Source: a virus. From it: DNA of 59,746 nucleotides. Where the stretch lies: positions 1-59,746 of IMG/VR virus record IMGVR_UViG_3300030060_003581; one strand, 5' to 3'. The notes beneath the pieces were generated by a model that saw nothing but the letters and a program-made list of their open reading frames with translations, was not told the DNA's origin and did no database searches. The position numbers and the translations under genes are program-made. Positions 19,537 to 50,050 of the stretch are shown piece by piece; within the stretch, counting starts at the first letter, position 1, and every line of letters starts with the position of its first letter.

Positions 19537-19962
19537 TCAAAGGTGGAACTCGTTCATTACCTCCTTCATCATGTTCAAGAGTTGTCCGTGTGTTCCCTGT
19601 TGGGTCACGAAATCAGCCAATTCGCTCTTGGTGTTGTTTATCTTCTCATCCAACTCGCTGATTGAGTTGTATATCTCCTTCTCAATGTTGATGTTAGCCA
19701 ATGCTTCACTCAGTTGTTCGTGTGTTACAGATGTTGTTTCTGCTTCAACTGCCGTGTCTTCCACATCATCCAATCTGCTGAACATACTGTCCACCTTTTC
19801 CCAAAGTGCATCTAATCTTGCCAATATGGCTTGTTGCACCTTGATACTTTGTTCCATCTTCACTTGCACAGTTCTCTCGATGTTAGGTTGTATCATGGTT
19901 ATTATCCATGCCAACATCGTATCGAGAACCGCTCTCTCGGTTGTTGTCGTCTTGTCGCTCAT
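19537..19962 (-). CDS. Coiled-coil protein of unknown function
   Basis: A 141-aa acidic, almost entirely helical protein (MSDKTTTTERAVLDTMLAWI..., then long heptad-like stretches such as LDALWEKVDSMFSRLDDVED). The chosen start at 19962 follows TTGGAGATTGAG; the frame extends upstream without a ribosome site. It has its own TATA box (near 20028) and terminator, so it is an independent unit next to the late operon. No family recognised. Confidence 0.75.
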   Translation of the reverse strand: MSDKTTTTERAVLDTMLAWIITMIQPNIERTVQVKMEQSIKVQQAILARLDALWEKVDSMFSRLDDVEDTAVEAETTSVTHEQLSEALANINIEKEIYNSISELDEKINNTKSELADFVTQQGTHGQLLNMMKEVMNEFHL

Positions 19963-20019
19963 GCTTCTCAATCTCCAATTATTTCTTCGCCCTGCTTCGG
20001 GCATTTGGGACACGGGGGA

Positions 20020-20038
20020 GTTTGCTTATATATCCTCC
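20020..20038 (-). promoter_or_regulatory. TATA-box promoter of the 141-aa gene
   Basis: The minus strand reads GAGGATATATAAGC about 65 bases before the start at 19962, leaving a roughly 40-base leader with a ribosome site. Spacing suits archaeal transcription. Confidence 0.5.
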
Positions 20039-20124
20039 CTCGATTTGCATTAGATTTTGCTTGTTTTACAGACATTTTTGATTCGCCGAGCAACAAATCA
20101 ACAGTATGTAAATAATGTATAAAC

Positions 20125-20144
20125 AGTCTTATACAATAATAAGG
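20125..20144. promoter_or_regulatory. Operator-like repeat, copy 1
   Basis: AGTCTTATACAATAATAAGG, identical to the copies at 20518-20537 and 21041-21060. It contains an imperfect palindrome (CTTAT...ATAAG) with the AGTCTTA half-site also seen in perfect palindromes at 25.8-26.0 kb. It lies between a T-tract terminator and the next minus-strand promoter. Confidence 0.65.
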
Positions 20145-20156
20145 CATCTATACCCA

Positions 20157-20207
20157 CATAAAAAAAGAGAGAAAAAAAGAGAGAAGCGGGAGGCCGAAGC
20201 CCCCCGC
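20157..20207 (-). terminator. Hairpin plus pyrimidine-tract terminator, copy 1
   Basis: On the minus strand a GC-rich hairpin GCGGGGGGC-TTCG-GCCTCCCGC (one mismatch, TTCG loop) is followed by TTCTCTCTTTTTTTCTCTC. It directly follows the stop of the 75-aa gene. The pyrimidine tract recurs in almost the same form at the two other cassettes. Confidence 0.75.
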
Positions 20208-20223
20208 CCCTCAAAGTCCCTGC

Positions 20224-20451
20224 TCAAGCAGGTCTGTTTAGGTAATATTCACTACCGTTGTCGGATTGCTCAATTTCCATGATTATATCATCAATCATGT
20301 TATCTTTCAATTCCTTGTATGACATGGTTGGATATTCCAACAATTGCCACCTTACGCTCTTTCTTAGGATTTCGCCTAAGTCACTGTCGCTCATGCTCTT
20401 AACAATCTCAACGATTGCTAATGCGTCTTTGTCTATTTTCTGTTCGCCCAC
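20224..20451 (-). CDS. Small acidic helical protein
   Basis: A 75-aa protein (VGEQKIDKDALAIVEIVKSM...) with a GTG start preceded by TTGAGGCGAC. Acidic and helical, no family recognised. It is a single-gene unit: TATATA box at 20487-20493 upstream, strong terminator downstream. Such isolated small genes near a regulatory block are often host-takeover proteins; that is inference. Confidence 0.6.
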   Translation of the reverse strand: MGEQKIDKDALAIVEIVKSMSDSDLGEILRKSVRWQLLEYPTMSYKELKDNMIDDIIMEIEQSDNGSEYYLNRPA

Positions 20452-20484
20452 TTTGGTCGCCTCAATTTACCCGACAGGGTTTCC

Positions 20485-20495
20485 ACATATATACC
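20485..20495 (-). promoter_or_regulatory. TATA-box promoter of the 75-aa gene
   Basis: Minus strand GGGTATATATGTGG lies about 36-44 bases upstream of the GTG start, with the operator-like repeat (20518-20537) just upstream of it. Confidence 0.5.
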
Positions 20496-20517
20496 CTTCG
20501 ATTCTGATAATCTATAT

Positions 20518-20537
20518 AGTCTTATACAATAATAAGG
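20518..20537. promoter_or_regulatory. Operator-like repeat, copy 2
   Basis: Exact copy of AGTCTTATACAATAATAAGG, placed between the terminator cassette at 20555-20609 and the promoter at 20485-20495. Confidence 0.65.
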
Positions 20538-20554
20538 CTCGCTGTCCCACGAAA

Positions 20555-20609
20555 GGGAGAGAGAAAAAAAGAGAGAGAAAGGGGGGGCGTTTTGGCCTCA
20601 GTCGCCCCC
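20555..20609 (-). terminator. Hairpin plus pyrimidine-tract terminator, copy 2
   Basis: On the minus strand GGGGGCG...CGCCCCC arms (20603-20609 and 20583-20589) are followed by TTTCTCTCTCTTTTTTTCTC. It lies after the 90-aa gene. Confidence 0.7.
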
Positions 20610-20682
20610 GTGACCGCCTCCATCGGTCAACTGCGGAATCATTCCGGTGATTCGTTCCTCGCTTCTTAACATCAGTATGAAA

Positions 20683-20955
20683 TCAATTTTGTTGATTTCT
20701 GATAACTTCGGTTAAAGTGTCTCTAATTGCACACAGACTCAAGTCTGCTTCCTTCTTAGTCATACCTAAATAACGCCCTAGGTATAGTTGGTTGTGCCTG
20801 CGCTCTTTGGTGATAACCCATAACTTGAATGAAATCCCGTTATATTTTGAACCAATCTCCAAATGCAGTTCGTCCGTGCTTTCAATTATACCTAATACTG
20901 TGAGTTTATCCTCAATGATTGAAGTAGTCGCTTTTAACACTCTTTCAGTTGCCAT
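20683..20955 (-). CDS. Small protein of unknown function
   Basis: A 90-aa alpha/beta protein (MATERVLKATTSIIEDKLTV ... KLWVITKERRHNQLYLGRYL). Start ATG at 20955 is chosen for the strong site GGGGAGGTGAGAAAGA; the frame extends further upstream but without one and through the terminator cassette. Own promoter near 21015 and own terminator. No family recognised. Confidence 0.7.
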   Translation of the reverse strand: MATERVLKATTSIIEDKLTVLGIIESTDELHLEIGSKYNGISFKLWVITKERRHNQLYLGRYLGMTKKEADLSLCAIRDTLTEVIRNQQN

Positions 20956-21009
20956 ATTCTTTCTCACCTCCCCGCCTGTGTCTCGTCGGATATTATGAAC
21001 AGCCAAGCC

Positions 21010-21020
21010 ATAGTATATGA
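21010..21020 (-). promoter_or_regulatory. TATA-like promoter of the 90-aa gene
   Basis: Minus strand TTCATATACTATGG lies about 60 bases upstream of the start at 20955, downstream of operator copy 3. Confidence 0.42.
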
Positions 21021-21040
21021 AGCCAGCGACTCTAACATAT

Positions 21041-21060
21041 AGTCTTATACAATAATAAGG
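21041..21060. promoter_or_regulatory. Operator-like repeat, copy 3
   Basis: Third exact copy of AGTCTTATACAATAATAAGG, again between a pyrimidine-tract terminator and a promoter. Copies 2 and 3 are both preceded by ATAT. Confidence 0.65.
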
Positions 21061-21078
21061 ATATTTGCACTCCACAAA

Positions 21079-21134
21079 GGAGAGAGAAAAAAAGAGAGAG
21101 AAGCCCCCCACCCCGCCGAAGTGGGATGAGGGGC
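21079..21134 (-). terminator. Hairpin plus pyrimidine-tract terminator, copy 3
   Basis: Minus strand GCCCCTCATCCC ... GGGGTGGGGGGC (12 pairs with wobbles, TTCG in the loop) followed by TTCTCTCTCTTTTTTTCTCT. It ends the 112-aa gene. Confidence 0.7.
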
Positions 21135-21179
21135 GAAATCGACAATTTTGTCGTATACAATACTACTACCTACCAAGAA

Positions 21180-21518
21180 TCAAATCTTGTATAGGGATAG
21201 GTTCCAAGCGTTACCTAGTTCGTAATAGTAGCCTTCTTTTTCTAGTATGTCACTGAACTCTAACTGAAGTTTAGCATCGTGTTCGCTAAACCAAGCATCG
21301 TTCATTACTGCATACAGTCCACCTTCAAAGGACATGCTGATGGTGTCATCATTAGCATACTCGAAATAATCACTGCCCTTAATGTCGGTTAGGACAGTAT
21401 AGTTACCGTCGCTATTGTAATCCCAGCATCTATTATTCCAATATATCCTTGTATCGTGATAGATTTCATGTCTCTTTAGGAAACGATGAATCTTCATTAC
21501 TAACGCATATTTTCTCAT
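21180..21518 (-). CDS. Aromatic-rich protein of unknown function
   Basis: A 112-aa protein with many Tyr, Trp and Asp residues (KIHRFLKRHEIYHDTRIYWN, WDYNSDGNYTVLTDIKG, EKEGYYYELGNAWNLSLYKI). Start follows AGGAGGTATAACAA, an excellent ribosome site. Own promoter probably at ATATTATATGC near 21570 and own terminator downstream. No family recognised. Confidence 0.75.
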   Translation of the reverse strand: MRKYALVMKIHRFLKRHEIYHDTRIYWNNRCWDYNSDGNYTVLTDIKGSDYFEYANDDTISMSFEGGLYAVMNDAWFSEHDAKLQLEFSDILEKEGYYYELGNAWNLSLYKI

Positions 21519-22200: not shown

Positions 22201-24753
22201 ATGGACAAGGAGATGCAAAATATGTATGCAGCAAACGGAACAGGCGACAGTGTGGTAGGACTACTTCCACTTCTATGGGTATTCATGCTCATGGCAGCGG
22301 TAGTCATTACCATCACTAGAAACAGAATGAATAGACAGATGACAAAGCGTATCGGCTTAGAACTTGAAGTTATCAAGCAAGCACATGCCCGAGAAAGCCC
22401 AAATCAAAAACTTGCTACTTGGCTTGAAATCAAGGGCAAGGAATGGCGACAAATGCAAAAGGAATCATCCTTATTGCATAAACTCAAAGTTCGCTTCATG
22501 GGATACACCCATGAGGTAATTAGTGGCACTAAAATCGTCACTGATTCGTCACTAAATAGTGGCGGCATTGAGATAGTATCACCACCTTTGGAGGGCAATA
22601 ATGCTGATGAATGGATAGACCAAATAGCCTACGGGCTGAAAGGTGTTGCCAATGTTGACTCGTCAACGGGACTTCACCTTCATATTGGACTTAGAGCCCC
22701 GAGTAATAATTGGAGTTCGCATGAATCAGATATTCTAGGGTTAACGGAAGGTAGCGAATACCGTCATGGCTTTTACTTAGCCAAAGCGGTTCTAGGTGCG
22801 ACATTGTTGACCGTTGCTCTATGGCAGCCGGTCTATAACCGAATGGTGGCTAAGTCACGACGAAACGGTCAGTGGAGTCGTGATGTATCCTTCATCCTAG
22901 GCAAATCATTTGTCTCAAGATACTTCCATGAACACAAGGAAAACGGCTACGATGCGGATAAACATGTTCGCTTCCTAAACAAAGTCGCAGACTACTTCAT
23001 TGGAAATGGAGATAGATATTATTGCGTTAATTCGCAAGCCTTTGAGCGATATGGAACCATTGAGTTCCGCAGCCATCAAGGCACAACCAATGCTCGCAAA
23101 ATCAAGGGCTGGGTTGATATGCACTATTTGTTAGTTCAACGATGCACAAATGAGTCGTGGTTAGACATTTTAGACTATAACCATGAATCAATCACAGACT
23201 TCTTTGGGTTCTTAGGAGTGTCACCATCAGACGACCTGTTTAGGCAGCAAGTCAGAAGGATTCGCAAACTAAACCCAAACAATCTCAATACAGTGTTTCA
23301 GCATGACCCACAACTAGGACTAGAACATCTATTCCAACACAGTGATTCATGCTCGGTATGCAAGTCAACAACTTGCGACCACGATGATGAATGCGGTTCT
23401 AAACCAAGTGTCAAACTTGGCAATCAAATCGCAAGGCATTTCGTCCAAAGTCGTCACATGAACTGTGATAACTGTGGTGAATACTCACTGCGAGATATAG
23501 AGCGAGGCGGATATGACATAGATTGGTATGACAATCATGCCGATGCTTACTGTCCGTCGTGTGATACTATACGGTCATTCTCAATGTCAACTACTTGGCT
23601 TGGTGGACTGTTCTTGTCACTAATGTTTGGTATCAGCCCAATGCTACTACTTACGGTAGGGTGTGGGATTGGTGCTATTCATGTAGCAAGGCGAAAGTTC
23701 CGAGAGCGAAACCTAGCAACCAAGTTGCTTAGGGCACTTCAAGTGAGAGGCGGCCAAGCCGCTGGATATGCCTTCAACAAAGGCAAGCAAGTCTTCTATC
23801 TGAAAATGGCAAGACCTGCTTCCTATGTAGCAAACAAAATCCGAAAGGACATTACTCCCAAGGAAACAAATTGGTGGCTCGGTCACACAAGGTTCGCTAC
23901 TCATGGAGCAAACAATGACAAGAATGCACACCCACATTTTAGTCGTGAAGTGGATATAACCCTAGTTCACAACGGGGTAGTTCACAACCACGACGATGTG
24001 TGGAAGGCACTCGGCCAAGAGCCAACCGGCGAGGTTGATTCACAGGCCGTAGCACAGTGCTTACAGGTCGGTGGCATCGAGGAAGTTGTCAAACACTGCG
24101 AAGGGTCAATGTCACTCATATGGCATGACAAACGCAGCGGAGAAGGCACTCTGAAATGTTGGACTAACGGTGGAAATCCATTAGTCATGGGTCGAATAGA
24201 CGATAGCAAGACGGGTGCGGTAGTAATCGCATCAACTGAGGCTATACTCAAGCAAGCCGTCGGCAAGCGACTCAAGACCTCATGGGATGCTACCATAGGC
24301 CGTGAATACACAATCCAAGCAGATGGAACGATAACCAAGCGTGACATTGAGGGTAGTGAAGCAACGGCTGGTATCACATACGATTGGAGGACATACACAT
24401 ATCTCCCCAAGAAGACAGTTACCAAAGGTGGCAAGCAAACTCCCGTCAAGAAGCAATCAAAACCGAAGCCGGTTAGGAAATACAAGCCTAGGCCGCCAAG
24501 GTGGGTTGTTGACCAAGCCAAGTCCGACTTAGAACTTGGCGAAATGGGCTTCCCAAGCCGAGCCGGTTATCACGGCTATGACGCCAAGAAGCACATGGGA
24601 GTTCGTCCCGATGGTGGCATGTATGACCTACCACAATATCTGAACCCATACGCATATGCGGATGACCTAGTGGAAGTCCTTCGGGGCGACCATGAGGGAT
24701 TCGTAGCGACCAATTGGGATTCATGCGAGTGGCGTGACTACTACATCAACTGA
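22201..24753 (+). CDS. Membrane amidoligase fused to class II glutamine amidotransferase
   Basis: An 850-aa composite enzyme. A membrane helix (about 18-38) precedes an amidoligase domain (PF12224-like, about 48-320): GLELEVI, DSSLNSGGIEIVSPPL, STGLHLHIGL and GTIEFRSHQGTTNARKIKGW. Cys-rich zinc-ribbon-like segments follow (384-398, 421-454), then a hydrophobic stretch (466-487) ending VGCGIG. Next comes a glutamine amidotransferase II domain: ALQVRGGQAAGYAF, GHTRFATHGAN (561-571) and LVHNGVVHNH (588-597). Members of these families hydrolyse glutamine for ammonia and form amide bonds with ATP. The tail is basic and Pro-rich. A second ATG at 22222 has the better ribosome site (AAGGAG). Substrate unknown. 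Confidence 0.82.
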   Translation: MDKEMQNMYAANGTGDSVVGLLPLLWVFMLMAAVVITITRNRMNRQMTKRIGLELEVIKQAHARESPNQKLATWLEIKGKEWRQMQKESSLLHKLKVRFMGYTHEVISGTKIVTDSSLNSGGIEIVSPPLEGNNADEWIDQIAYGLKGVANVDSSTGLHLHIGLRAPSNNWSSHESDILGLTEGSEYRHGFYLAKAVLGATLLTVALWQPVYNRMVAKSRRNGQWSRDVSFILGKSFVSRYFHEHKENGYDADKHVRFLNKVADYFIGNGDRYYCVNSQAFERYGTIEFRSHQGTTNARKIKGWVDMHYLLVQRCTNESWLDILDYNHESITDFFGFLGVSPSDDLFRQQVRRIRKLNPNNLNTVFQHDPQLGLEHLFQHSDSCSVCKSTTCDHDDECGSKPSVKLGNQIARHFVQSRHMNCDNCGEYSLRDIERGGYDIDWYDNHADAYCPSCDTIRSFSMSTTWLGGLFLSLMFGISPMLLLTVGCGIGAIHVARRKFRERNLATKLLRALQVRGGQAAGYAFNKGKQVFYLKMARPASYVANKIRKDITPKETNWWLGHTRFATHGANNDKNAHPHFSREVDITLVHNGVVHNHDDVWKALGQEPTGEVDSQAVAQCLQVGGIEEVVKHCEGSMSLIWHDKRSGEGTLKCWTNGGNPLVMGRIDDSKTGAVVIASTEAILKQAVGKRLKTSWDATIGREYTIQADGTITKRDIEGSEATAGITYDWRTYTYLPKKTVTKGGKQTPVKKQSKPKPVRKYKPRPPRWVVDQAKSDLELGEMGFPSRAGYHGYDAKKHMGVRPDGGMYDLPQYLNPYAYADDLVEVLRGDHEGFVATNWDSCEWRDYYIN

Positions 24754-30178: not shown

Positions 30179-30411
30179 TGAGCGACCACCAAGATTCAGA
30201 ACACTTCATGGGAGTGCGTAGCGAAAGCGAGTTGCTCGACATGCTTGACCGAGCCGAGCGCAAACAAAATGAACATTACGCATACATACATATCGTGAGT
30301 AAAAAGGCTCGAAAGATGTATCACATGAGGAATTACAAAGCACTTGAGGGCGTGGTAAAGACACTGCGCTGGTGCTTGGGTGACAAGGAGGTTGAACACC
30401 CATTAGAGTGA
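30175..30411 (+). CDS. Small helical protein of unknown function
   Basis: A 78-aa helical protein (SELLDMLDRAERKQNEHYAY, ARKMYHMRNYKALEGVVKTL). ATGATG at the start overlaps the previous stop; either ATG may serve. No family recognised. Confidence 0.62.
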   Translation: MMSDHQDSEHFMGVRSESELLDMLDRAERKQNEHYAYIHIVSKKARKMYHMRNYKALEGVVKTLRWCLGDKEVEHPLE

Positions 30412-30418
30412 CCGGTGA

Positions 30419-30444
30419 CTATATATACCGGAAGCCCCAATATA
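30419..30444 (+). promoter_or_regulatory. Type I early promoter, copy 4
   Basis: CTATATATACCGGAAGCCCC then AATATA, closest to copy 3. A ribosome site (AGGAGAGGAATGAT) follows before the next start. Confidence 0.58.
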
Positions 30445-30464
30445 GAAACAAGGAGAGGAATGAT

Positions 30465-31037
30465 ATGAACATATTTGTATTACACGAAAACCCAATACTA
30501 GCAGCAACAATGATAGACGACAATAGGCTGCCTAAAATGGTAACTGAAAGCGCACAGATGCTTGCATCGGCGCTGATTAGACACGGTGCTACACCGGACT
30601 CTATGCCACTTACCAAGGCAGGGACACCATACAAGGGAGGTTATCACAATCACCCTTGCACAGTATGGGCTGGTGATTCGCTAGGCAACTTCGCTTGGCT
30701 GATGACTCACGGCCTGTCGTTGGCACATCAATACGAGCGATTGTTTGGCAGGCAGCATGCTTGTGACAAGGCTATGAGGGAGATGGTAAAAAACCCTGCG
30801 ATTGAGAACATGGGCAGTGACGAACTGACTCCATTCGCAAGAGCATTTGACAGGGAAAACAAAGACCTTGACGAACTGTATGACGAGGAAAAATATACTG
30901 CGGTCGAAGCGTATCGCATATACTACAAGACCAAAGCAGACAGTCCGGCAGGTATCAAATACGAGCGTGTCGCTATGCCGGAGTGGTATAATGACAGTAA
31001 GTATATTTACGGAGTAAATTACGAGGTGAGAACATGA
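30465..31037 (+). CDS. Widespread phage protein of unknown function
   Basis: A 190-aa protein of a family seen in many marine phages: MNIFVLHENPILAATMIDDN at the start, then KMVTESAQMLASALIR, YHNHPCTVWAGDSLGNFAWL, HQYERLFGRQHA, and TAVEAYRIYYKTKAD...MPEWY at the end. The conserved His, Cys, Trp and Asn residues suggest an enzyme, but no activity is known to me. Start 30465 follows AAGGAGAGGAATGAT; a longer in-frame start would run through the promoter. Confidence 0.75.
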   Translation: MNIFVLHENPILAATMIDDNRLPKMVTESAQMLASALIRHGATPDSMPLTKAGTPYKGGYHNHPCTVWAGDSLGNFAWLMTHGLSLAHQYERLFGRQHACDKAMREMVKNPAIENMGSDELTPFARAFDRENKDLDELYDEEKYTAVEAYRIYYKTKADSPAGIKYERVAMPEWYNDSKYIYGVNYEVRT

Positions 31038-35284: not shown

Positions 35285-36571
35285 ATGAATATCTTTGAAA
35301 CTATGAGAACTTATGTGAACAGAAATCACTATGTTGATGTTGATGATAAGATACCTGTGTTCCTATGCTCAATAGGCACACACATTTTCAACGGCCTAAA
35401 CAAGTGCGGAACTTGTCCTTTCATACCGACGGGAGAAGAAGGTGCGTTTGCCATAGACTCTTGTATTCTAAGGCACGATAAAGCGCCTCTATACACCCCT
35501 ATGAGCCACATAGCAGACACTAGGCTACATATCCTCATGCGAGGTATGAAAGGCTCGGGAAAGTCCGTTCTAATCAATTTATTTTTAGCGCCCGGAACGG
35601 GGTTACTAAACAATCCATTGAATGCTGACATAGGTATGGCTTTTAGAACTGACATTGGCGCTAACTCTATTACAGAAGCAGGTATGTTTGGGTCTGTAAA
35701 TGAAGAAGGTGAAATCATGGGCAGACCTTTAGCAAGGGAAATGTGTGGTGGCTTCTTGGGCTTCGAGGAGTTTTCATCACTTGTTGATGCTGGCAGAAAA
35801 GACCACAGTATAGACATGACTAATCAACTTCTAACAAGCACAGATAATGGTCGAGTTAGAAAGGCTATGAGAGCAGGTTGGGTTCAATACACAACACGCT
35901 TTACTCTATGGGCTGGGACTCAGCCCGGTCGTTTCGAGATGGAGTCCGGTATGGATAGAAGGTTCTTCATTATTGATATTAACATGAACCCCAAGAAGGA
36001 GATGCAATTTAAGAAGGCACAGGCTAAACAGGCTAGCATGACTAACGCTGAAAGGGCTGAGTTGGCTGGGCTGGCTATTGAGATTAAAGACTTCTTTACC
36101 GAGAGGACTATGGAAGTTATTATGAATCCGCCAACCGGAGTTAGATTTGACGAGGCACTAAACGAGTGGCTTTACAAGCCCGAAGTTCGTAGTCACGAAG
36201 CCGACCTGTTCCGAAGGTTGGCTTTGGGATATACAATTATGTCGCCCGACTACGAAGGAGGCGACTTATTGTTTGTCAAAATGACTGATGAACTACGCCA
36301 AATCTTAGACTCTAGTTTGGAAATGAGGCGTGGTGTGATGGAGTCTGACATAAACCTAATCAAGACTGCGTTTTGGAACACTGAACTAACACGCACTGCT
36401 CTTATCAAAGAAGTAGCAAGGATGATTACTCCCGGAGACTACCAAGCGGCTAAGCGTTGGGTTGAAGATAATCTTTTAATACAGGCGTGGTATAGTGAAG
36501 AACGCAGTAGCGCAAGCGGTCGAGGCCGCAGGGGCGTTAAGGTATTTATCGGATATAAGGAGGATGATTAA
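35285..36571 (+). CDS. AAA+ ATPase, MCM-like replicative helicase candidate
   Basis: A 428-aa ATPase. Walker A is GMKGSGKS (87-94), Walker B GFLGFEEF (156-163), a sensor-1-like LWAGTQPGRFE (209-218) and a double-Arg finger GMDRRFF (223-229), in the order and spacing of MCM-type AAA+ modules. The N-terminal Cys set (CGTC, 41-44) might bind zinc. Full archaeal MCM is longer (about 650 aa), so the N-terminal DNA-gripping domain is reduced or absent. In this block of replication genes, a DNA unwinding role is the best guess; a different AAA+ role cannot be excluded. Confidence 0.6.
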   Translation: MNIFETMRTYVNRNHYVDVDDKIPVFLCSIGTHIFNGLNKCGTCPFIPTGEEGAFAIDSCILRHDKAPLYTPMSHIADTRLHILMRGMKGSGKSVLINLFLAPGTGLLNNPLNADIGMAFRTDIGANSITEAGMFGSVNEEGEIMGRPLAREMCGGFLGFEEFSSLVDAGRKDHSIDMTNQLLTSTDNGRVRKAMRAGWVQYTTRFTLWAGTQPGRFEMESGMDRRFFIIDINMNPKKEMQFKKAQAKQASMTNAERAELAGLAIEIKDFFTERTMEVIMNPPTGVRFDEALNEWLYKPEVRSHEADLFRRLALGYTIMSPDYEGGDLLFVKMTDELRQILDSSLEMRRGVMESDINLIKTAFWNTELTRTALIKEVARMITPGDYQAAKRWVEDNLLIQAWYSEERSSASGRGRRGVKVFIGYKEDD

Positions 36572-37913: not shown

Positions 37914-38572
37914 TTATATTCACTAATGATGACAAGAATTATAGAAAGGGTAATTTCATTACTATGTATGGTGACATAACAGTGTCGCCGTCAGCACCCG
38001 ACACTACATTTATCTTACACAACATGAAGTTTAGTGAGGCAGATGTTTTGTATTGGTCTCCAATAGTAGCATACCGCATGGTAGTAGTTGTTGATAAGCC
38101 ACCTAAACTGAGCAGTAAGGTTGATGACTGTGTAATCATAGACCAAAACCTAAAGGTCGCTGACACTGATTATTCTAGGGCTATTCGTGCTGCTCTATGC
38201 TGGGCTGACAGGGATAGGGCATACAATGTCCTAAAACCCATACCGCTACCGCTAATGAATGCGTTTGTTAAAGTCAATGTGGACTCTATGAGGATAGGTA
38301 AGTTGCTGGCACAGTGCCGATACACTCTCCACGATGACTACACAAGGGCGGTTTTAGCCTACGGTATTAATCCTGTTTCTAATTTTAAGTGGCCTAAGAA
38401 GTCAAATAAAAACGACTATATACTGCCGAGCAACATGAGGAAATCAGACAAGCACCTAGAGGTGATACTCAGCAACGATACTATTGTATCTAACGCTATC
38501 CGCAGGGATAACCCCGAGTCATTACCGAAGGGCTTGCCTAAACGAAAACAAGAGGCGATAGAATGGCTATGA
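37904..38572 (+). CDS. Protein of unknown function in replication block
   Basis: A 222-aa protein. The N-terminal half is strand-rich (FITMYGDITVSPSAPDTTFI, AYRMVVVVDKPPKL); the C-terminal half is helical (YSRAIRAALCWADRDRAYNV, GKLLAQCRYTLHDDYTRAVL). The two-part layout is compatible with a degenerate clamp-loader or polymerase accessory subunit, but I do not recognise the family. Start follows GGAGTTGATAGA and overlaps the previous gene. Confidence 0.62.
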   Translation: MGVIIFTNDDKNYRKGNFITMYGDITVSPSAPDTTFILHNMKFSEADVLYWSPIVAYRMVVVVDKPPKLSSKVDDCVIIDQNLKVADTDYSRAIRAALCWADRDRAYNVLKPIPLPLMNAFVKVNVDSMRIGKLLAQCRYTLHDDYTRAVLAYGINPVSNFKWPKKSNKNDYILPSNMRKSDKHLEVILSNDTIVSNAIRRDNPESLPKGLPKRKQEAIEWL

Positions 38573-38925
38573 ATGAATTATTTGTGTATGGAACACTAAA
38601 GCGAGGCTACCACAATAACGACCTGTTGGGGGATTCCCAACTACTAGGAGACTACGAAACACTACCCCGTTGGGGTTTGGTTTCATTAGGTTCCTTTCCC
38701 GGCATGGTTGCTGGGAATAAAGCAGTAAAGGGTGAAGTGTATTTGGTGGATGATGAAACACTAGCAGCAGTTGATTTACTAGAGGGCGTTGCTCATGGTT
38801 TATATCAGCGTAGGAAAATATGGATTAAAAGTCCTGTTACCTTAGTTAAGCGTGAAGTATATGCTTACATTTACAATGACATTGTGTTTAACTCGGCAGC
38901 AAGTATGATGGATTCGTGGGACTAA
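38563..38925 (+). CDS. Gamma-glutamylcyclotransferase-like (AIG2/GGCT) protein
   Basis: A 120-aa protein with the family's signature: FVYGTLKRGYHNN (7-19), SFPGMV (44-49), GEVYLVDDETLAAVDLLEG (catalytic Glu74) and YQRR (81-84). GGCT-fold enzymes cyclise gamma-glutamyl amines and release 5-oxoproline. In bacteria and phages this fold is found alongside amidoligases and class II amidotransferases, both present here in one protein at 22.2-24.8 kb. Substrate unknown. Confidence 0.85.
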   Translation: MAMNELFVYGTLKRGYHNNDLLGDSQLLGDYETLPRWGLVSLGSFPGMVAGNKAVKGEVYLVDDETLAAVDLLEGVAHGLYQRRKIWIKSPVTLVKREVYAYIYNDIVFNSAASMMDSWD

Positions 38926-39575: not shown

Positions 39576-40475
39576 ATGAACCAAATATGGGCAACGAAGC
39601 ACAGGCCAATACACCTTGATGATTTCAAGGGACAGGAACACATTGTAAAGGAAATGAAATACATATTGTATGGCACTGCTAAAATGCAGCACTACATTTT
39701 CTTTTCCCCCGAACCGGGGACAGGTAAGACTACAATGGCTCATATTCTAGCAAAGCAGTTGGGATATGAAATACATCAATACAATGCTTCATCTAAGCGT
39801 CAGCGTGGCATAGAGTTTATCGAGGAGGAGTTAGCACCTATGACTCGGCTCGGTCAGTATGAAACAATTTATTTCTTGGACGAAGCAGACCAACTAACGC
39901 CTGCCGCACAGTCGGCACTCAAGGGTGTGATTGAGGATGCACAGGGCTTTTTTATTCTTACTTGTAATGACCTAAGCAAAGTCAGCCCTTGGCTTCAATC
40001 CCGTTGTCAAGTGCGAACCTTTGTTCCTATACTAGATAGTGATATGCGAAAGCGCCTATCTAGTATTGATGGGACAGAAGGTTTCCAAACTCCTATTGAG
40101 GATATTAATGCGATAGCAAAGGCTAACAAGGGTGACTTGCGTAACGCAATAAATACACTACAAGCCTACCATTCTATCCCCGAAGCAGACAGGCAATCAT
40201 TTTTATCAAGGATAGGTGAGCCTCCTGTTGATGCACAGAAGATACTTACGCTTTGTATGAAGGAGCAGAATGTTGAAGATGCCGTCAAGTTGATGGGTTC
40301 TTCTAACCTTAGAAAGACAATAGACGCCGTGTTTAGATACGGTATTGATTCTCCCGCTAAGCCAACCAGCAAACTAAAGTTGGTTGAGGCAGCCACCCAA
40401 GCGCACCGTGATTTACTCATGGGCGTTGAGTCCCACTATGTAGTGTGGGATTTTTGTAGGAGGCTAGCGTCATAA
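39576..40475 (+). CDS. Clamp loader, RFC small-subunit-like
   Basis: A 299-aa AAA+ protein: LDDFKGQEHI at the start, Walker A SPEPGTGKT (44-52), Walker B IYFLDEAD (98-105), sensor 1 LTCND (128-132), the SRC arginine finger (142-144) and LRNAINTLQAY (sensor 2 region). It should load the PCNA-like clamp using ATP. Archaea pair this subunit with a large RFC, which I do not find here, so it may work alone or with host RFC-L. Confidence 0.9.
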   Translation: MNQIWATKHRPIHLDDFKGQEHIVKEMKYILYGTAKMQHYIFFSPEPGTGKTTMAHILAKQLGYEIHQYNASSKRQRGIEFIEEELAPMTRLGQYETIYFLDEADQLTPAAQSALKGVIEDAQGFFILTCNDLSKVSPWLQSRCQVRTFVPILDSDMRKRLSSIDGTEGFQTPIEDINAIAKANKGDLRNAINTLQAYHSIPEADRQSFLSRIGEPPVDAQKILTLCMKEQNVEDAVKLMGSSNLRKTIDAVFRYGIDSPAKPTSKLKLVEAATQAHRDLLMGVESHYVVWDFCRRLAS

Positions 40476-42836: not shown

Positions 42837-43649
42837 ATGAAAGCGCCTCGGGATTTGCTATTACAGTTGCTAAGTGTCACTAAGCGTGAGCAGGCCATCA
42901 ACGGCAAGACTCAACCGCAAGTGACAGGTTGTGTGTTGGTTTTGGCTGACAACAGGGTTTCGACTACTAGCATTGTAAAGGATGGGAAAACAAGTCTCTC
43001 GAGGTTCTCTTTTGTTCGGGAACAAGACGGTGAAGAATTAATTCCTGTGCCGGATATTGACAGACTACTTGGTGTGTTAAAATACCATGCTGATGTGGTA
43101 ACTCTAACTCACAGTAAAGAGTCGGGTAAGGTTCTTATAAAATCTAAAAACAAGCAGACTACTTTGGTGGGTGGGCTTGACTCTAAGGCTTTCCCCAACA
43201 GTCAGCAGACGCTACTCGAATGGCATAAGACTTCTGTTGAAAGAGCAAAGCAGATAGATGCTGCAAAAAGGTCTTACAAGTTACAGACGGGCGCTATCCG
43301 CAAACCATTTTATTCAATAACAATGCCAGCAACAGAAGTGTATGATGCTCTTAGATGTGACGGCATAAACGGACAGAAACTAAACCGATACACATTTACT
43401 GTTAAGAATGAGTTACTGTCGGTATCTGTGGGCGACCACTTCAAAGGACTTACTGAGAGTGAGTTAGGCAAATGTCCCGGTGTTAAGGACTTTACTGCTA
43501 CTTTTGAGGGTGGTCTTGAGAATATACTCAAACACTATACCGGCGACATGATGCTATCCTTCATAGACTTTAGAGAAGAAGGGCAGGGAATTAGGCTTAT
43601 GCTTTCATTTGCTAATGGGGATTGGGTTTTCCAAGCGGGTGTATTGTAA
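42837..43649 (+). CDS. PCNA-like DNA sliding clamp
   Basis: A 270-aa protein with two similar halves. The first contains ELIPVPDIDRLLGVLKYHAD, VTLTHSKESGKVLIKSKNKQ and GLDSKAFPNS; the second has YTFTVKNELLSVSVGDHFKG and LENILKHYTGDMMLSFI. These are the strand-helix patterns of PCNA. A trimer would ring DNA and tether the polymerase. Start follows GGGAGGTTAGATAG. It is more diverged than the clamp loader. Confidence 0.72.
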   Translation: MKAPRDLLLQLLSVTKREQAINGKTQPQVTGCVLVLADNRVSTTSIVKDGKTSLSRFSFVREQDGEELIPVPDIDRLLGVLKYHADVVTLTHSKESGKVLIKSKNKQTTLVGGLDSKAFPNSQQTLLEWHKTSVERAKQIDAAKRSYKLQTGAIRKPFYSITMPATEVYDALRCDGINGQKLNRYTFTVKNELLSVSVGDHFKGLTESELGKCPGVKDFTATFEGGLENILKHYTGDMMLSFIDFREEGQGIRLMLSFANGDWVFQAGVL

Positions 43650-44247: not shown

Positions 44248-46494
44248 ATGCAAGTAACACATACAAGCGGAAGAAAAGTAACTATCAGAAGGCGTGACCC
44301 CGACACTCTTGAGCGCATTCAAGAAGTGATAGAGGCTTACCCCTACTGCTTTGTTCCTACTGAAAAGTTAACTGATACTTACGGTTTGGTAAGGGTCGAA
44401 GAAGGATTTGAAGGAGTATATGGCACTAAGTTATCTAAGGTGTATTTTAGAAACGAATACGACCGTAGGGATTGGGCTAGGGCTAACCACACTTGGGAAG
44501 GCAGTATGCCTTTTACTAACCAAGTTCTTATTGACAGGTTGAAGGACAATGAACCATACCCTAATTACGAACACAGGATATGGTATATTGACGGTGAGTG
44601 GAAAAAAGAGTCTGAGGAAATAACTATCCTCAGTGCTTACGATTCCTACACCGGTAAAATGTTCACATGGGTTCAGCACCCCGATATTGAGCCGGGATAC
44701 CATAGTAGTTTGCCCTGTAAGAATCACCCCGATGGTTTGAAAGAAATCCATTTCGATACAAAACTGAAAGCGTTTGCTAATGAGCGTCAACTGCTGGCTG
44801 ACTTTGCAGCACATATGGCTAAACATGACCCCGATGTGTTGACCGGTTGGTATTTTGTTGACGCTGATGTATCAACAATCAGCACTCGTATGCGTAGGCT
44901 TGGGCTTGACCCACGCAGATTATCGCCGCACAATCAGCATAACTACAAATACAGTGCTACTGAAAAGCGTTGGACTCAGCCCATTCCCGGTCGCATGTGT
45001 ATTGACTTGATGATTGCATTCAAGAAGTTATGGACTATCAAAAACGGTCAATTAGCAGGGCAAAAGTTAGATGATGTTGCGGAGTTTGTATTAGGTGAGC
45101 GCAAGGTCGAGTTAGAAGATGGGCATGATACCTATTATACCGACATAGGCACATACATTGACTACAATAGACAAGATGTGCGTCTTTTACCTAGACTAGA
45201 TGAGGAAATAAATGCTATCAATTACTACACTTCACTGCAACACTTAGTTCAGTGCGACATAGAGACTACTCCTTTGACCACGCTGCCCTCGTCATGCCTA
45301 TTCTTACAGGATGAACAGTTCGATGGTCGCATTCCCGATAACCCAAGGTTCAACAAGATTGACTACGAGGGCGCTGACATACAAGAGCCTGTTCCGGGTC
45401 GTTATGAGAACATGGCAATCATGGACATTAAGGCCATGTATCACTCTAATGTAAAGTTGCATAACATATGCTGGACTACTCTTAGTGACGACGGAAAAGA
45501 CTGTGGTAATGGCAGTAAGTTCTCACAGGAAAAGTCGGGATTGTTAGGTAGGACTATGGATAAATTGACAGTCAAGCGTAATGAATACAAGGCTTTGATG
45601 AAACAGGCCACCACTGCTGCTGAGAAGCGCAAGTGGGATGCTATGCAGTTTGCTACCAAATCAATGGTTGCGTCCCTATATGGTGTATCCGGTGACTCAA
45701 AATACGGCATGTATCACCCCGATATAGCGTCTGCTATTACATACACAAGCAGGCAGACTTTATTCCGCTTGCGTGATGAGTGTAATGAGCGTGGTTATCC
45801 TGTTAGATACGGACATACCGACTCTATCTTTTGCGAAGTTCCTAGTCCCGAAGAAGGCATGGGACTTGTTGCTAAAATTAACAAGGCTATGCACCCAATA
45901 GAAACTGAGTTCGAGAAGTGGTGTGCTACTATGATACTAAAACGCAAGAATCGTTACGCTGGTAAGGTCACATGGACTGATGGACAGTATCACGACCCGC
46001 AGTATTATTACAAAGGTCTTGAGTTAAAACAAGCCCGTATGCCGAAGGCTATGAAACAGGCTATGGATAAGACCTTGCGTGGTATTCTTGATGGGGCAGA
46101 CCGTCAGCAGGTTGACTCCGAACTTATTTCCCTTATAATGAAAGGAAATGAAGGTCAACTCGGTGAGGACTTGTTGCAGATTGGCAAACTCAAGATGCCT
46201 CTATCCCGTTACAAAAGTATCAGTGGCGCAGCCGCAGGTGCGCTTTGGGCTAAACAATACTTAGATAAGCGATACGAACCGGGCGAGACCTTTTTGACAG
46301 CGATTGGGGCTGGTGGGCAATACTATGCGTTTGACAAACTAAAGGACTTAGAGGGCGTCGCTAAGATTGATTGGTCGGAGATGACTGAGCGATTCATTGT
46401 CAACAAGGCTTGTGACATTTATGACTTGGTTGAATGGGACACTCAGCCGCTATGGAACGCTCATAGAGGCATTGGTAATGTCGAATGGTTATAA
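44248..46494 (+). CDS. polB: Family B DNA polymerase
   Basis: A 748-aa replicative polymerase. Exonuclease motifs: Exo I WYIDGEWK (112-118), Exo II region DVLTGWYFVDAD and Exo III YNRQD (306-310). Polymerase motifs: A MDIKAMYHSN (from 392), B FATKSMVASLYGV (about 467-480), C YGHTDSIF (about 520-527, His in place of the usual first Asp), and KKRYAG-like KNRYAGK, then KGLELKQAR. Proofreading and synthesis both look intact apart from the motif C change. Own promoter, preceded by helix-turn-helix regulators. Confidence 0.95.
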   Translation: MQVTHTSGRKVTIRRRDPDTLERIQEVIEAYPYCFVPTEKLTDTYGLVRVEEGFEGVYGTKLSKVYFRNEYDRRDWARANHTWEGSMPFTNQVLIDRLKDNEPYPNYEHRIWYIDGEWKKESEEITILSAYDSYTGKMFTWVQHPDIEPGYHSSLPCKNHPDGLKEIHFDTKLKAFANERQLLADFAAHMAKHDPDVLTGWYFVDADVSTISTRMRRLGLDPRRLSPHNQHNYKYSATEKRWTQPIPGRMCIDLMIAFKKLWTIKNGQLAGQKLDDVAEFVLGERKVELEDGHDTYYTDIGTYIDYNRQDVRLLPRLDEEINAINYYTSLQHLVQCDIETTPLTTLPSSCLFLQDEQFDGRIPDNPRFNKIDYEGADIQEPVPGRYENMAIMDIKAMYHSNVKLHNICWTTLSDDGKDCGNGSKFSQEKSGLLGRTMDKLTVKRNEYKALMKQATTAAEKRKWDAMQFATKSMVASLYGVSGDSKYGMYHPDIASAITYTSRQTLFRLRDECNERGYPVRYGHTDSIFCEVPSPEEGMGLVAKINKAMHPIETEFEKWCATMILKRKNRYAGKVTWTDGQYHDPQYYYKGLELKQARMPKAMKQAMDKTLRGILDGADRQQVDSELISLIMKGNEGQLGEDLLQIGKLKMPLSRYKSISGAAAGALWAKQYLDKRYEPGETFLTAIGAGGQYYAFDKLKDLEGVAKIDWSEMTERFIVNKACDIYDLVEWDTQPLWNAHRGIGNVEWL

Positions 46495-48123: not shown

Positions 48124-48318
48124 ATGACAACATATTGTAAGCATTGTGAGGCTAAGATGATAGAAGAAGTAGCGTTCTTGGTAACAGGACAGGTAAATGG
48201 GCCGAGACAGTCTATTACCTTGCTGGTGTGCGAAGAATGCGGATATACTGTAAAGGAGGCAAGCGAAGATGATAACATTTCCGAGGGAAATAGGACTGAA
48301 AAGGGCAGTGGTGAGTAG
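48124..48318 (+). CDS. Small zinc-ribbon protein
   Basis: A 64-aa protein with CKHC and CEECG pairs (MTTYCKHCEAKMIEEVAFLV ... LVCEECGYTVKE) and a polar tail. It overlaps the primase by 50 bases in another frame. Confidence 0.6.
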   Translation: MTTYCKHCEAKMIEEVAFLVTGQVNGPRQSITLLVCEECGYTVKEASEDDNISEGNRTEKGSGE

Positions 48319-49288
48319 TCATAGAGACTATATATCCTATGTTAAAAAAATGAGGACTAAAACTTCTTGTTACACAAGCCTGTATTCTTTTTCTGAGATG
48401 GATAATAACTATAAACCGGACTACCGATATGCAGTGATAGACCGAGCATGGTGGGATTTTGATGCGGGAGAAAAAGGAGGAATTGAACAGGTCAAGCAAG
48501 ATGTCGCTAAACTCATCTCTAGGTTGGAGGGCGACATTCGGCTTGTGGCAACAGGTCGAGGCTTCCATGTCCACCAGATTTTCAATAGACCGGTCATTGG
48601 GGCGCAATATAGGCTACCGCTGGAACACTACCAAAGACGAAAAGCAAGAGGACTAGTTACGCTTGACGGCGTAGGCTTTCCCGAAAAACTTACTCGCATT
48701 CCTAACACATACAATCCCAAGCGTGGGCGTTGGTGTGTAGTTATTCCTACACATGAGTTTATTAACAACCCTATGGACTACGATATTCCAAAGCAGCCGT
48801 ATGCTTTTGATAGAAAATATCATCCGTTTGGCGAAATTGATTTTAATATTGAAAGATTTGATTTCGAGTCATGGTGTAGCAACTATCAACCGATTGATGA
48901 TGACTACTGCACCGATAGTATAGAGTTAGATGAGTCAATGCTAACTGCTGGCACAGTTCCTATTATGCCTTGCTTGGCTAAAGCAATACACCAAGACAAG
49001 CCTAATCATCATGTTAGGGTTGCGTTAGTTCAGCATATGGCTGATACGCTAAGAGACTTTGCAGACCCCGAGGCAATCAGCATAGAGCAAAGGAGACAGA
49101 TTGAGGATGAGATATTCAACTTTGTCAAGGGTCTTAATTGGTCTAATTGGAATGCCACTGCTTCACGCAAAGGGATTAAAAGCACTATGAAGTATAGACG
49201 AGTGCCGTCGTGTTCATGGTTTGCTGCTAGAGGTATGTGTGGTGGAAAATGCTGGCGATATGACGGAACTGTGGACTTTTCTGAATGA
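48269..49288 (+). CDS. Archaeo-eukaryotic primase with PriL-like cysteine domain
   Basis: A 339-aa primase. N-terminal part is PriS-like: WDFDAGEKGG (Asp63, Asp65), ATGRGFHVHQIF (His100, His102) and LTRIPNTYNPKRGRW. The C-terminal part has Cys235, Cys315, Cys324 and Cys328 (MPCLAKAI ... PSCSWFAARGMCGGKCW), like the iron-sulphur domain of PriL. So catalytic and large-subunit roles seem combined in one small protein. It makes primers for the polymerase. Start follows AAGGAGGCAAGCGAAG. Confidence 0.8.
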   Translation: MITFPREIGLKRAVVSSHRDYISYVKKMRTKTSCYTSLYSFSEMDNNYKPDYRYAVIDRAWWDFDAGEKGGIEQVKQDVAKLISRLEGDIRLVATGRGFHVHQIFNRPVIGAQYRLPLEHYQRRKARGLVTLDGVGFPEKLTRIPNTYNPKRGRWCVVIPTHEFINNPMDYDIPKQPYAFDRKYHPFGEIDFNIERFDFESWCSNYQPIDDDYCTDSIELDESMLTAGTVPIMPCLAKAIHQDKPNHHVRVALVQHMADTLRDFADPEAISIEQRRQIEDEIFNFVKGLNWSNWNATASRKGIKSTMKYRRVPSCSWFAARGMCGGKCWRYDGTVDFSE

Positions 49289-49321: not shown

Positions 49322-50050
49322 ATGCTAGTAGTTGATGACCGAGAGAACGACCTTTTGATTCACAAACTCTATGCTTCTATGGGCAATCACGATGATGGCG
49401 GCCATGTTAAAGTAAAGCGGCTACAATCCGCAGATTACATCATAGGTAACATAGGAATAGAGGCCAAAGAGATAAATGACTTGTATCACTCTATTATGGG
49501 TCACGGTCGCTCTCGGACTATTGTAGGGCAACTGATGGACTTACAGGAAAACTTTGAGCGACCTATGCTTGTAGTTTATGGAACTCAATTAAAACCTTAC
49601 ATTCCCGGGGGCAGACCTAACCGACAACAAATGGCGAGAGAGATAAAGAAGATGAACGCAGTAATCAAAAAGTTCAAGCAGAATCTAATTATACAATTCC
49701 CAAATATACAATACATGGAACTGTCAAGCATGGATGACATGGTTGATTGGCTTTCGTCTGTGCATCACAATTTAAGAATCCGAAGGATGCCTGTCGCAGA
49801 ACCGAGAGAGAAGACAAAAAGTTCCAATAGGAAAATTGATTTGCGAGTTAGAGTCTTGTCATCCATAGAAGGAATATCCGAGAGAGCCGCACATGACTTG
49901 TTAACCGAGTTTGGCTCAATTCCACGCTTGTTGCGCTCTCGCACAAGCCAGCGAAAACTCATGGAGATAGACGGCATAGGGCGCAAAAGAGCCAAGGCTA
50001 TTCTATCCCTGCGTGAACGCTATCCCGACCAGCCCGAACCAAAAGACTAA
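49322..50050 (+). CDS. ERCC4/XPF-type nuclease with helix-hairpin-helix pair
   Basis: A 242-aa protein. The ERCC4 nuclease core has VVDDREND (Asp5, Arg7, Glu8), SADYIIG, and GIEAKEINDL (variant of IERKxxxDL with Ala for Arg). Two helix-hairpin-helix motifs follow (LSSIEGISERAAHDLLTEFG, LMEIDGIGRKRAKAILSL). Cuts branched or flap DNA in repair and replication. Last gene of the rightward arm; its stop overlaps the stop of the leftward hub gene. Confidence 0.9.
   Translation: MLVVDDRENDLLIHKLYASMGNHDDGGHVKVKRLQSADYIIGNIGIEAKEINDLYHSIMGHGRSRTIVGQLMDLQENFERPMLVVYGTQLKPYIPGGRPNRQQMAREIKKMNAVIKKFKQNLIIQFPNIQYMELSSMDDMVDWLSSVHHNLRIRRMPVAEPREKTKSSNRKIDLRVRVLSSIEGISERAAHDLLTEFGSIPRLLRSRTSQRKLMEIDGIGRKRAKAILSLRERYPDQPEPKD

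Follow-up and report, generated by a model that had tools for sequence, protein, structure and literature searches.

A fused amidoligase–class II glutaminase with a mid-chain catalytic cysteine in a probable archaeal-type tailed virus

The window analyzed here is an entire IMG/VR virus record (IMGVR_UViG_3300030060_003581; 59,746 bases). Its plus strand carries, at 22201 to 24753, an open reading frame (ORF) that starts with ATG, is stop-free throughout, and joins an amidoligase to a class II glutamine amidotransferase (GATase) in a single chain of 850 amino acids. The gene opens the rightward gene block, beside a divergent junction, and its product comprises, from the N terminus, a first hydrophobic segment, the amidoligase, cysteine clusters, a second hydrophobic segment, the class II glutaminase, and a C-terminal tail. 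The individual features are as follows, with homologue counts that include the window protein.

22201 to 24753, plus strand: the whole fused gene, 850 residues, supported by the ORF, Pfam, 14 full-length fused relatives, and the same syntenic place in six genomes of ~60 kb
22252 to 22308, plus strand: hydrophobic segment 1 (residues 18 to 36), a predicted N-terminal membrane anchor with acidic residues ahead of it and basic residues behind it, in 15/15 homologues
22342 to 23274, plus strand: Amidoligase_2 domain (residues ~48 to 358), supported by Pfam, motifs in 15/15, an AlphaFold2 model, and PDB fold matches
23350 to 23586, plus strand: Cys-rich, zinc-ribbon-like linker with C384xxC387-x4-C392...C398 and C422xxC425...C451xxC454, from the alignment of 15
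23596 to 23661, plus strand: hydrophobic segment 2 (residues 466 to 487), ending in V486-G487, in 15/15 homologues
23656 to 23673, plus strand: junction V486-G487-C488-G489-I490-G491, invariant in 15/15, with a proposed cut between G487 and C488
23662 to 24360, plus strand: class II N-terminal nucleophile (Ntn) GATase domain (residues 488 to 720), supported by Pfam, PHROGs, NCBIfam, invariant residues, and Foldseek
24361 to 24750, plus strand: low-complexity basic linker and C-terminal tail (residues 721 to 850), from homologue alignments

Fused relatives were sought in IMG/VR viral contigs. A first scan found two, and an alignment-based scan yielded 14 full-length proteins of 764 to 1022 residues (read from the first ATG), which are 35 to 65% identical to the window protein in the best segment; one domain plan is shared by all 15 proteins, and the C-terminal tail keeps the motif Y/HGYD...G(I/V)RPDG..Y.LP. 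The ratio of nonsynonymous to synonymous substitution rates (dN/dS) is ~0.08 to 0.27 in close pairs, and the long frame is therefore a real, constrained protein. Given this constraint, 15 independent fused copies, and catalytic residues invariant in all of them, the fusion is not a product of chance; it is a real feature that holds across a virus family. The gene nevertheless diverges faster than the replication genes (33 to 47% versus 68 to 84% identity). PHROGs assignments agree with the Pfam domains, and the identities of the two domains as Amidoligase_2 and class II glutaminase can be taken as virtually certain.

The amidoligase was matched by the Pfam family with an E value of 3e-11 (44.1 bits against a cut-off of 22); in the relative L003, the match reaches 88.7 bits (7e-27). 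Residues G52-E54-E56 (GxExE), H159-H161 (HxH), and E288-F-R290-x-H292 are invariant in 15/15 sequences, and the metal/ATP-site motifs GxExE, HxH, and ExR are likewise invariant in an alignment of 18 sequences. Modeled alone with AlphaFold2, the domain reached a predicted local distance difference test (pLDDT) value of 85.6 and a predicted template modeling score (pTM) of 0.88. Searching the PDB with this model returned mostly glutamine-synthetase, gamma-glutamyl ligase, and Dop-PafA-type folds, the top matches being bifunctional glutathione synthetase (3ln7), YbdK (1r8g), gamma-glutamylmethylamide synthetase (9qur), Dop/PafA, and glutamine synthetases. In contrast to the window protein, the ligases 3ln7, 1r8g, 9qur, and PafA/Dop carry no fused glutaminase in their PDB entries. 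All matches are distant (E values of 7.6e-4 to ~1e-2, query-based template modeling scores [TMq] of 0.32 to 0.42, ~10 to 14% identity), and the unrelated-looking HMG-CoA reductases match with similar E values at lower probability. Judged by its sequence and model, the domain is a predicted carboxylate-amine ligase of the glutamine synthetase fold with complete motifs. The full-length AlphaFold2 model (pLDDT 72, pTM 0.47) is poor between domains and does not resolve their arrangement.

The glutaminase domain was matched by GATase_6 (3.9e-16, score 59.7 against a cut-off of 27) and, above the curated cut-off, by GATase_7 (1.8e-8). Invariant in 15/15 are C488, R516-G517, H562-T563-R564, T567-H568-G569, H590-N591-G592, and D613. 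The residues expected of a class II enzyme are thereby all present, i.e., the catalytic cysteine, the R564/T567-H568-G569 glutamine-binding segment, the N591-G592 oxyanion hole, and D613, which binds the glutamine amine. Foldseek aligned the domain with the GlmS glutaminase 1xff (E value 6.8e-12, target-based template modeling score [TMt] 0.74), and fold and active site resemble those of GlmS and PurF; in contrast to these enzymes, the window protein has no SIS isomerase or PRPP-transferase domain and carries its fusion partner at the N terminus. Annotation as GlmS was rejected, the isomerase domain being absent and the score being 73 bits against a cut-off of 418. Pfam and NCBIfam found only the glutaminase part and no synthase partner (SIS, PRT, or synthetase) after it, scores being far below the cut-offs.

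The nucleophile of this domain is encoded mid-chain, at residue 488, directly after hydrophobic segment 2. Residue 1 of both the glmS (TIGR01135) and purF (TIGR01134) models of NCBIfam aligns to C488. By comparison, 12/12 class II relatives that are unfused, all of them from phages or a single bacterial bin, have the cysteine directly behind the start methionine. Some other Ntn hydrolases, e.g., proteasome beta subunits, also have a glycine immediately ahead of the nucleophile. Class II GATases require an N-terminal cysteine, which is freed autocatalytically from a few preceding residues (PMC9140057). A fused chain with an internal C488 could therefore not work as a normal class II amidotransferase unless it is cleaved. 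The sequence V-G-C-G-I-G is identical in 15/15, whereas the preceding hydrophobic stretch averages only ~35% identity. Among homologues, V486 is encoded by GTA, GTT, GTC, or GTG, and the constraint is therefore on the protein and not on an internal start codon. An internal translation start giving a separate GATase was rejected on this variability and because no start codon is conserved near C488; with GTG as the start, a glycine would still precede the cysteine. The pattern suggests that the chain is quite probably processed between residues 487 and 488, freeing an N-terminal Cys488.

Between the two enzymes lies the Cys-rich linker, the fastest-evolving part of the protein (mean identity 0.21, high dN). 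Its C384xxC387..C392 cluster is conserved in 14/15 homologues (L014 lacks it), as is the CxxC(422/425)...CxxC(451/454) cluster (L003 lacks it). Hydrophobic segment 1 (residues ~18 to 36) has a mean Kyte-Doolittle hydropathy of 2.7, and segment 2 (residues ~466 to 487) one of 2.0. The charges flanking segment 1 favor an N-out/C-in orientation, which would put the amidoligase, an ATP-dependent domain, on the cytosolic side. In the fold model, segment 2 is of low confidence (pLDDT below 50 at residues 462 to 487); it usually contains a proline 8 or 11 residues ahead of the cysteine, which fits a kink. An initial annotation, made from the letters of the window, had described an amidoligase and a class II amidotransferase fused in one viral protein and joined by Cys-rich ribbons. 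The Pfam scores above cut-offs, the 15 fused homologues, and the two conserved clusters bear this description out, and its amidoligase assignment withstood fold modeling, with the metal/ATP-site motifs present in a confident model. Two things escaped that annotation: the internal C488 nucleophile and the probable archaeal character of the virus considered below.

Four further genes bear on the interpretation.

38563 to 38925, plus strand: GGACT, an AIG2-like gamma-glutamyl(amine) cyclotransferase of 120 residues (PF06094, 5.8e-21)
39576 to 40475, plus strand: RFC small-subunit-like clamp loader, adjoining the GGACT gene (NCBIfam RFC small subunit, 2.5e-41)
44248 to 46494, plus strand: family B DNA polymerase (PolB), with best matches to haloarchaeal tailed viruses and placed by a tree
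49322 to 50050, plus strand: Hef/XPF (ERCC4) nuclease (NCBIfam Hef nuclease, 4.4e-21)

The cyclotransferase keeps its YGTLK motif and the catalytic Glu74 in 6/6 homologues. Related viruses were sampled via PolB, and 34 contigs of at least 30 kb were tested. In the clade whose PolB is at least 68% identical, the fusion occurs in 10/13 contigs and GGACT in 12/13; by synteny-offset arithmetic, G025, G026, and G027, which lack the fusion, and G023, which lacks GGACT, stop short of the position where the gene would lie. GGACT was found in every related contig that covers its syntenic place. In the sister group (PolB 46 to 52% identical), both genes are absent (0/21 each), and neither GATase_6 nor Amidoligase_2 gave a match. 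Across the six genomes of ~60 kb the positions are constant: GGACT adjoins the clamp loader gene, and the fusion gene lies at the divergent junction. The GGCT-like protein that the initial annotation had placed at 38.6 kb is thus identified, and the co-occurrence it had proposed to look for was found, the three parts being together in the window and in every sufficiently long relative. We lean towards a role of GGACT in the same pathway as the fusion protein.

The same three parts are known from bacterial phages. The phage amidoligase/class II GATase/GGCT cassette is reportedly the subject of Iyer et al. (2009). GGCT, GATase, amidoligases, and ATP-grasp proteins occur together in RIO-1-like podoviruses, phiEco32, LUZ24, and others, and have been read as modifying peptidoglycan against superinfection (PMC5498523; PMC11945000; PMC3890496); RIO-1, HP1, phiEco32, LUZ24, and PA11 are listed as carriers of a "peptidoglycan modification cassette" (PMC5498523, PMC11945000). 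We found such cassettes also in HP1, phiEco32, and Vp_R1. The window shares with them homologous Amidoligase_2 proteins (profile E values of 8e-15 to phiEco32_84 and 1e-12 to HP1_45) and the presence of amidoligase, class II GATase, and GGCT/GGACT in one virus. However, the phage proteins are encoded by separate neighboring genes, usually with ATP-grasp and COOH-NH2 ligase genes, whereas here two are one chain and GGACT lies 14 kb off; the hydrophobic segments, the Cys linker, the internal cysteine, and the archaeal-type virus likewise set the window apart. The scanned window proteins, which included only some of the small ORFs, yielded no ATP-grasp member. The highest-scoring pair in the phage collection (28 to 30% identity) belongs to Arthrobacter phages Waltz and Salgado, whose SEA_WALTZ_94-96 comprise GGACT, amidoligase, and GATase as three separate adjacent genes, the GATase starting Met-Cys with no hydrophobic segment ahead of the cysteine; the link to a known amidoligase/GATase/GGCT association, drawn in the initial annotation, is supported by this arrangement. 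The triad itself is thus known in bacterial phages; the novelty lies in the fusion of two of its parts, the hydrophobic segments, the mid-chain nucleophile, and the putative archaeal-type virus.

Unfused relatives also occur elsewhere. Two scans of genome contigs for cellular relatives returned no fused protein; the matches, in a Planctomycetaceae and a Kangiellaceae bin, were unfused or partial. A contig of a Planctomycetaceae metagenome bin (L030:8699-10246) encodes an adjacent unfused amidoligase (283 residues) and GATase (MCGVFGF...), as do the large phages L017 and L019; this pair is possibly phage derived. A lone class II GATase has been mentioned for the archaeal Caudoviricetes phiCh1 and ChaoS9 (PMC8651126); in the literature searched, no amidoligase has been described for an archaeal virus. 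In the haloarchaeal virus phiCh1, the product of phiCh1_200 (L159:29157-30224, minus strand), beside the class II glutaminase phiCh1_195, shows GMEIE, SHVHL, and IELR motifs by eye; the two were rejected as an unfused archaeal pair, profile scores of phiCh1_200 being no better than those of shuffles.

The virus belongs to a marine family and is probably an archaeal-type tailed virus, as judged from its genes. PolB scored 140 bits against HRTV-27 and 119 against HSTV-3, compared with up to 105 for cyanophages and mostly 57 to 66 for T4-type phages; in the tree, it groups with Hafunaviridae at 100/100, at only ~24% identity. For the Hef/XPF nuclease, tblastn gave no match in the phage collection. 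The gene set of HRTV-27 (PolB, Cas4-like nuclease, ERCC4 nuclease, calcineurin-like phosphoesterase, and archaeal primase) resembles the replication set of the window, but no amidoligase is annotated there. More broadly, the window shares with Magrovirales and Hafunaviridae the PolB, clamp loader, or ERCC4/Cas4-like/primase sets and two opposed gene blocks. Magrovirales are marked by genomes of 90 to 110 kb and a full replisome that includes PCNA, MCM, and ligase; the window and its relatives measure ~60 kb, RFC, PolB, and Hef were found, and candidates for PCNA, primase, and helicase are without profile support, PDB profile searches with these window proteins having given no matches. Marine archaea are not known to have murein, and the hosts of these viruses probably lack a bacterial-type wall. 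An archaeal-type virus would remove the usual peptidoglycan substrate, which makes a peptidoglycan role of the fusion protein unlikely.

Taken together, these observations suggest the following mechanism. The archaeal-type tailed virus would make the two enzymes as one membrane-associated precursor. Cleavage of the Gly487-Cys488 bond, for which the Ntn domain is the most likely agent, would expose Cys488 as a new N terminus and thereby activate the glutaminase. Ammonia released from glutamine would then be used by the ATP-dependent ligase, which hydrophobic segment 1 would hold at the inner face of the host membrane, where it would amidate or gamma-glutamylate a carboxylate or amine substrate. 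GGACT, by opening gamma-glutamyl-amine bonds, would recycle the product or reverse the modification. Functional coupling of the glutaminase and ligase domains is fairly probable; the reading as a whole, with a cut precursor, a coupled glutaminase-ligase at the membrane, and recycling or reversal by GGACT, has about an even chance of being correct. In a tentative extension, viruses of murein-less marine archaea would use a self-cleaving, membrane-tethered, glutamine-dependent amide-forming enzyme together with GGACT to add and remove a gamma-glutamyl or amide mark, carried by host proteins, membrane lipids, or S-layer precursors.

Several observations weigh against this mechanism. In nearly all homologues, the charge flanks of both hydrophobic segments favor N-out/C-in, and this shared preference conflicts with two simple passes combined with one cytosolic amidoligase. 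The membrane segments of the initial annotation are thus present in 15/15 homologues, but two simple membrane passes do not fit them; segment 2 may be re-entrant, a propeptide-like buried plug, or peripheral rather than a membrane span. The protein is likely, from its sequence, to be membrane associated, and we claim no defined topology. The GGACT gene lies 14 kb from the fusion gene rather than next to it, and the co-occurrence of the two reflects one gain (or loss) in one clade and is phylogenetically weak; joint function is therefore only moderately supported. The archaeal host assignment is drawn from gene content only, and the PolB tree carries a long-branch warning. Finally, C488 could be a non-functional nucleophile if the chain stays uncut, although its conservation argues otherwise.

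An auxiliary role in nitrogen metabolism is one alternative, in which glutaminase, ligase, and GGACT would supply or rearrange small gamma-glutamyl or amide metabolites and the tether would be incidental or coupled to uptake. Marine archaea are often nitrogen limited, and the amidoligase model matches small-molecule ligases, namely, bifunctional glutathione synthetase, YbdK, and gamma-glutamylmethylamide synthetase. In phage-ZRK32, the same gene set (GATase, amidoligase, GGCT, and glutathione synthase) was termed nitrogen auxiliary metabolic genes, and addition of the phage raised growth with nitrate or ammonium, but individual genes were not tested in that study (PMC10945688). A soluble small-molecule ligase needs neither a membrane anchor nor Cys ribbons, and the faster evolution of the fusion gene relative to the replication genes is conflict-like rather than metabolism-like; we consider this role unlikely.

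Comparably unlikely is that the enzyme, working from within the membrane, modifies membrane proteins, lipid head groups, or the surface layer of the host to block superinfection or aid release. The hydrophobic segments in 15/15 homologues and the position as first gene of the rightward block at the divergent junction, as for an early gene, agree with such a function, and for bacterial cassettes a change of the cell surface that wards off superinfection has been proposed (PMC5498523). However, both domains need cytosolic ATP and glutamine, and modification of an outer-surface substrate would therefore have to precede export. Such a surface alteration or superinfection block had been suggested in the initial annotation.

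That the chain stays uncleaved is improbable. The glutaminase domain would then be an inactive or regulatory glutamine sensor, or C488 would be lipidated at a lipobox-like L/V/I-V-G-C and serve for anchoring only. The junction fits the lipobox pattern in 13/15 proteins (V/I/L at -3, V at -2, and G at -1), and class II GATases with an internal cysteine are inactive unless processed (PMC9140057). Yet R564, N591-G592, D613, and T567-H568-G569 are invariant, a constraint not expected of a domain that is dead or has only a structural role; C488 is followed by a canonical first GATase strand and then basic residues, unlike in a lipoprotein, and a lipidated thiol could not serve as nucleophile. A bacterial host with a fused peptidoglycan-modification cassette is very improbable: although the closest unfused relatives sit in bacterial phages (Arthrobacter phages, kuraviruses, and LUZ24-like phages) and T4-like phages too encode PolB along with RFC-like clamp loaders, the PolB of the window groups with those of haloarchaeal viruses, Hef/XPF is absent from the phage collection while archaeal models match it at 4e-21 and HRTV-27 also has an ERCC4 nuclease gene, and the window proteins scanned include no ATP-grasp member.

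The amidoligase/GATase/GGCT triad occurs widely among phages, where peptidoglycan modification and nitrogen metabolism have so far been no more than guesses at its function. Its conservation in archaeal-type viruses argues against a murein-only role, and if the reversible mark proposed above were real, the phage triad would not be a peptidoglycan system at root. By linking glutaminase and ligase physically, the fusion makes it plausible that the two act as one ammonia-transfer enzyme, and the invariant VG|C junction predicts membrane-adjacent self-processing, which was not found for this enzyme class in the literature searched. "GlmS" is listed as an auxiliary metabolic gene of magroviruses (PMC10160649); these genes may encode glutaminases of the kind found in the fusion rather than glucosamine synthase.

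Other parts of the window deserve mention. Three plus-strand genes encode conserved proteins: a 339-residue protein (48269-49288) whose WWDFDAG...GRGFHVHQ recalls archaeo-eukaryotic primases, with no Pfam or PDB profile match, and, adjoining replication genes, two strongly conserved proteins, namely, a P-loop (GSGKS) protein (35285-36571), 72 to 84% conserved, with no profile match, and a protein in a PCNA-like position (42837-43649), 55 to 68% conserved, also with no profile match. On the minus strand, 50047-57045 encodes a 2332-residue protein without a Pfam family, and 57056-59746 an 896-residue ORF reaching the last base of the record; both vary strongly between relatives (30 to 52% identity) and probably encode adhesins or tail proteins. 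Between the exonuclease gene and the fusion gene, short ORFs that read leftward (19537-21518, minus strand) are without homologue in any of five related genomes and form a hypervariable early-region island. A possible UV-repair gene, found throughout the six related genomes, lies at 30408-31037 (plus strand); its Pfam similarity to pyrimidine dimer DNA glycosylase (PF03013, 7.9e-5) is weak but above the cut-off.

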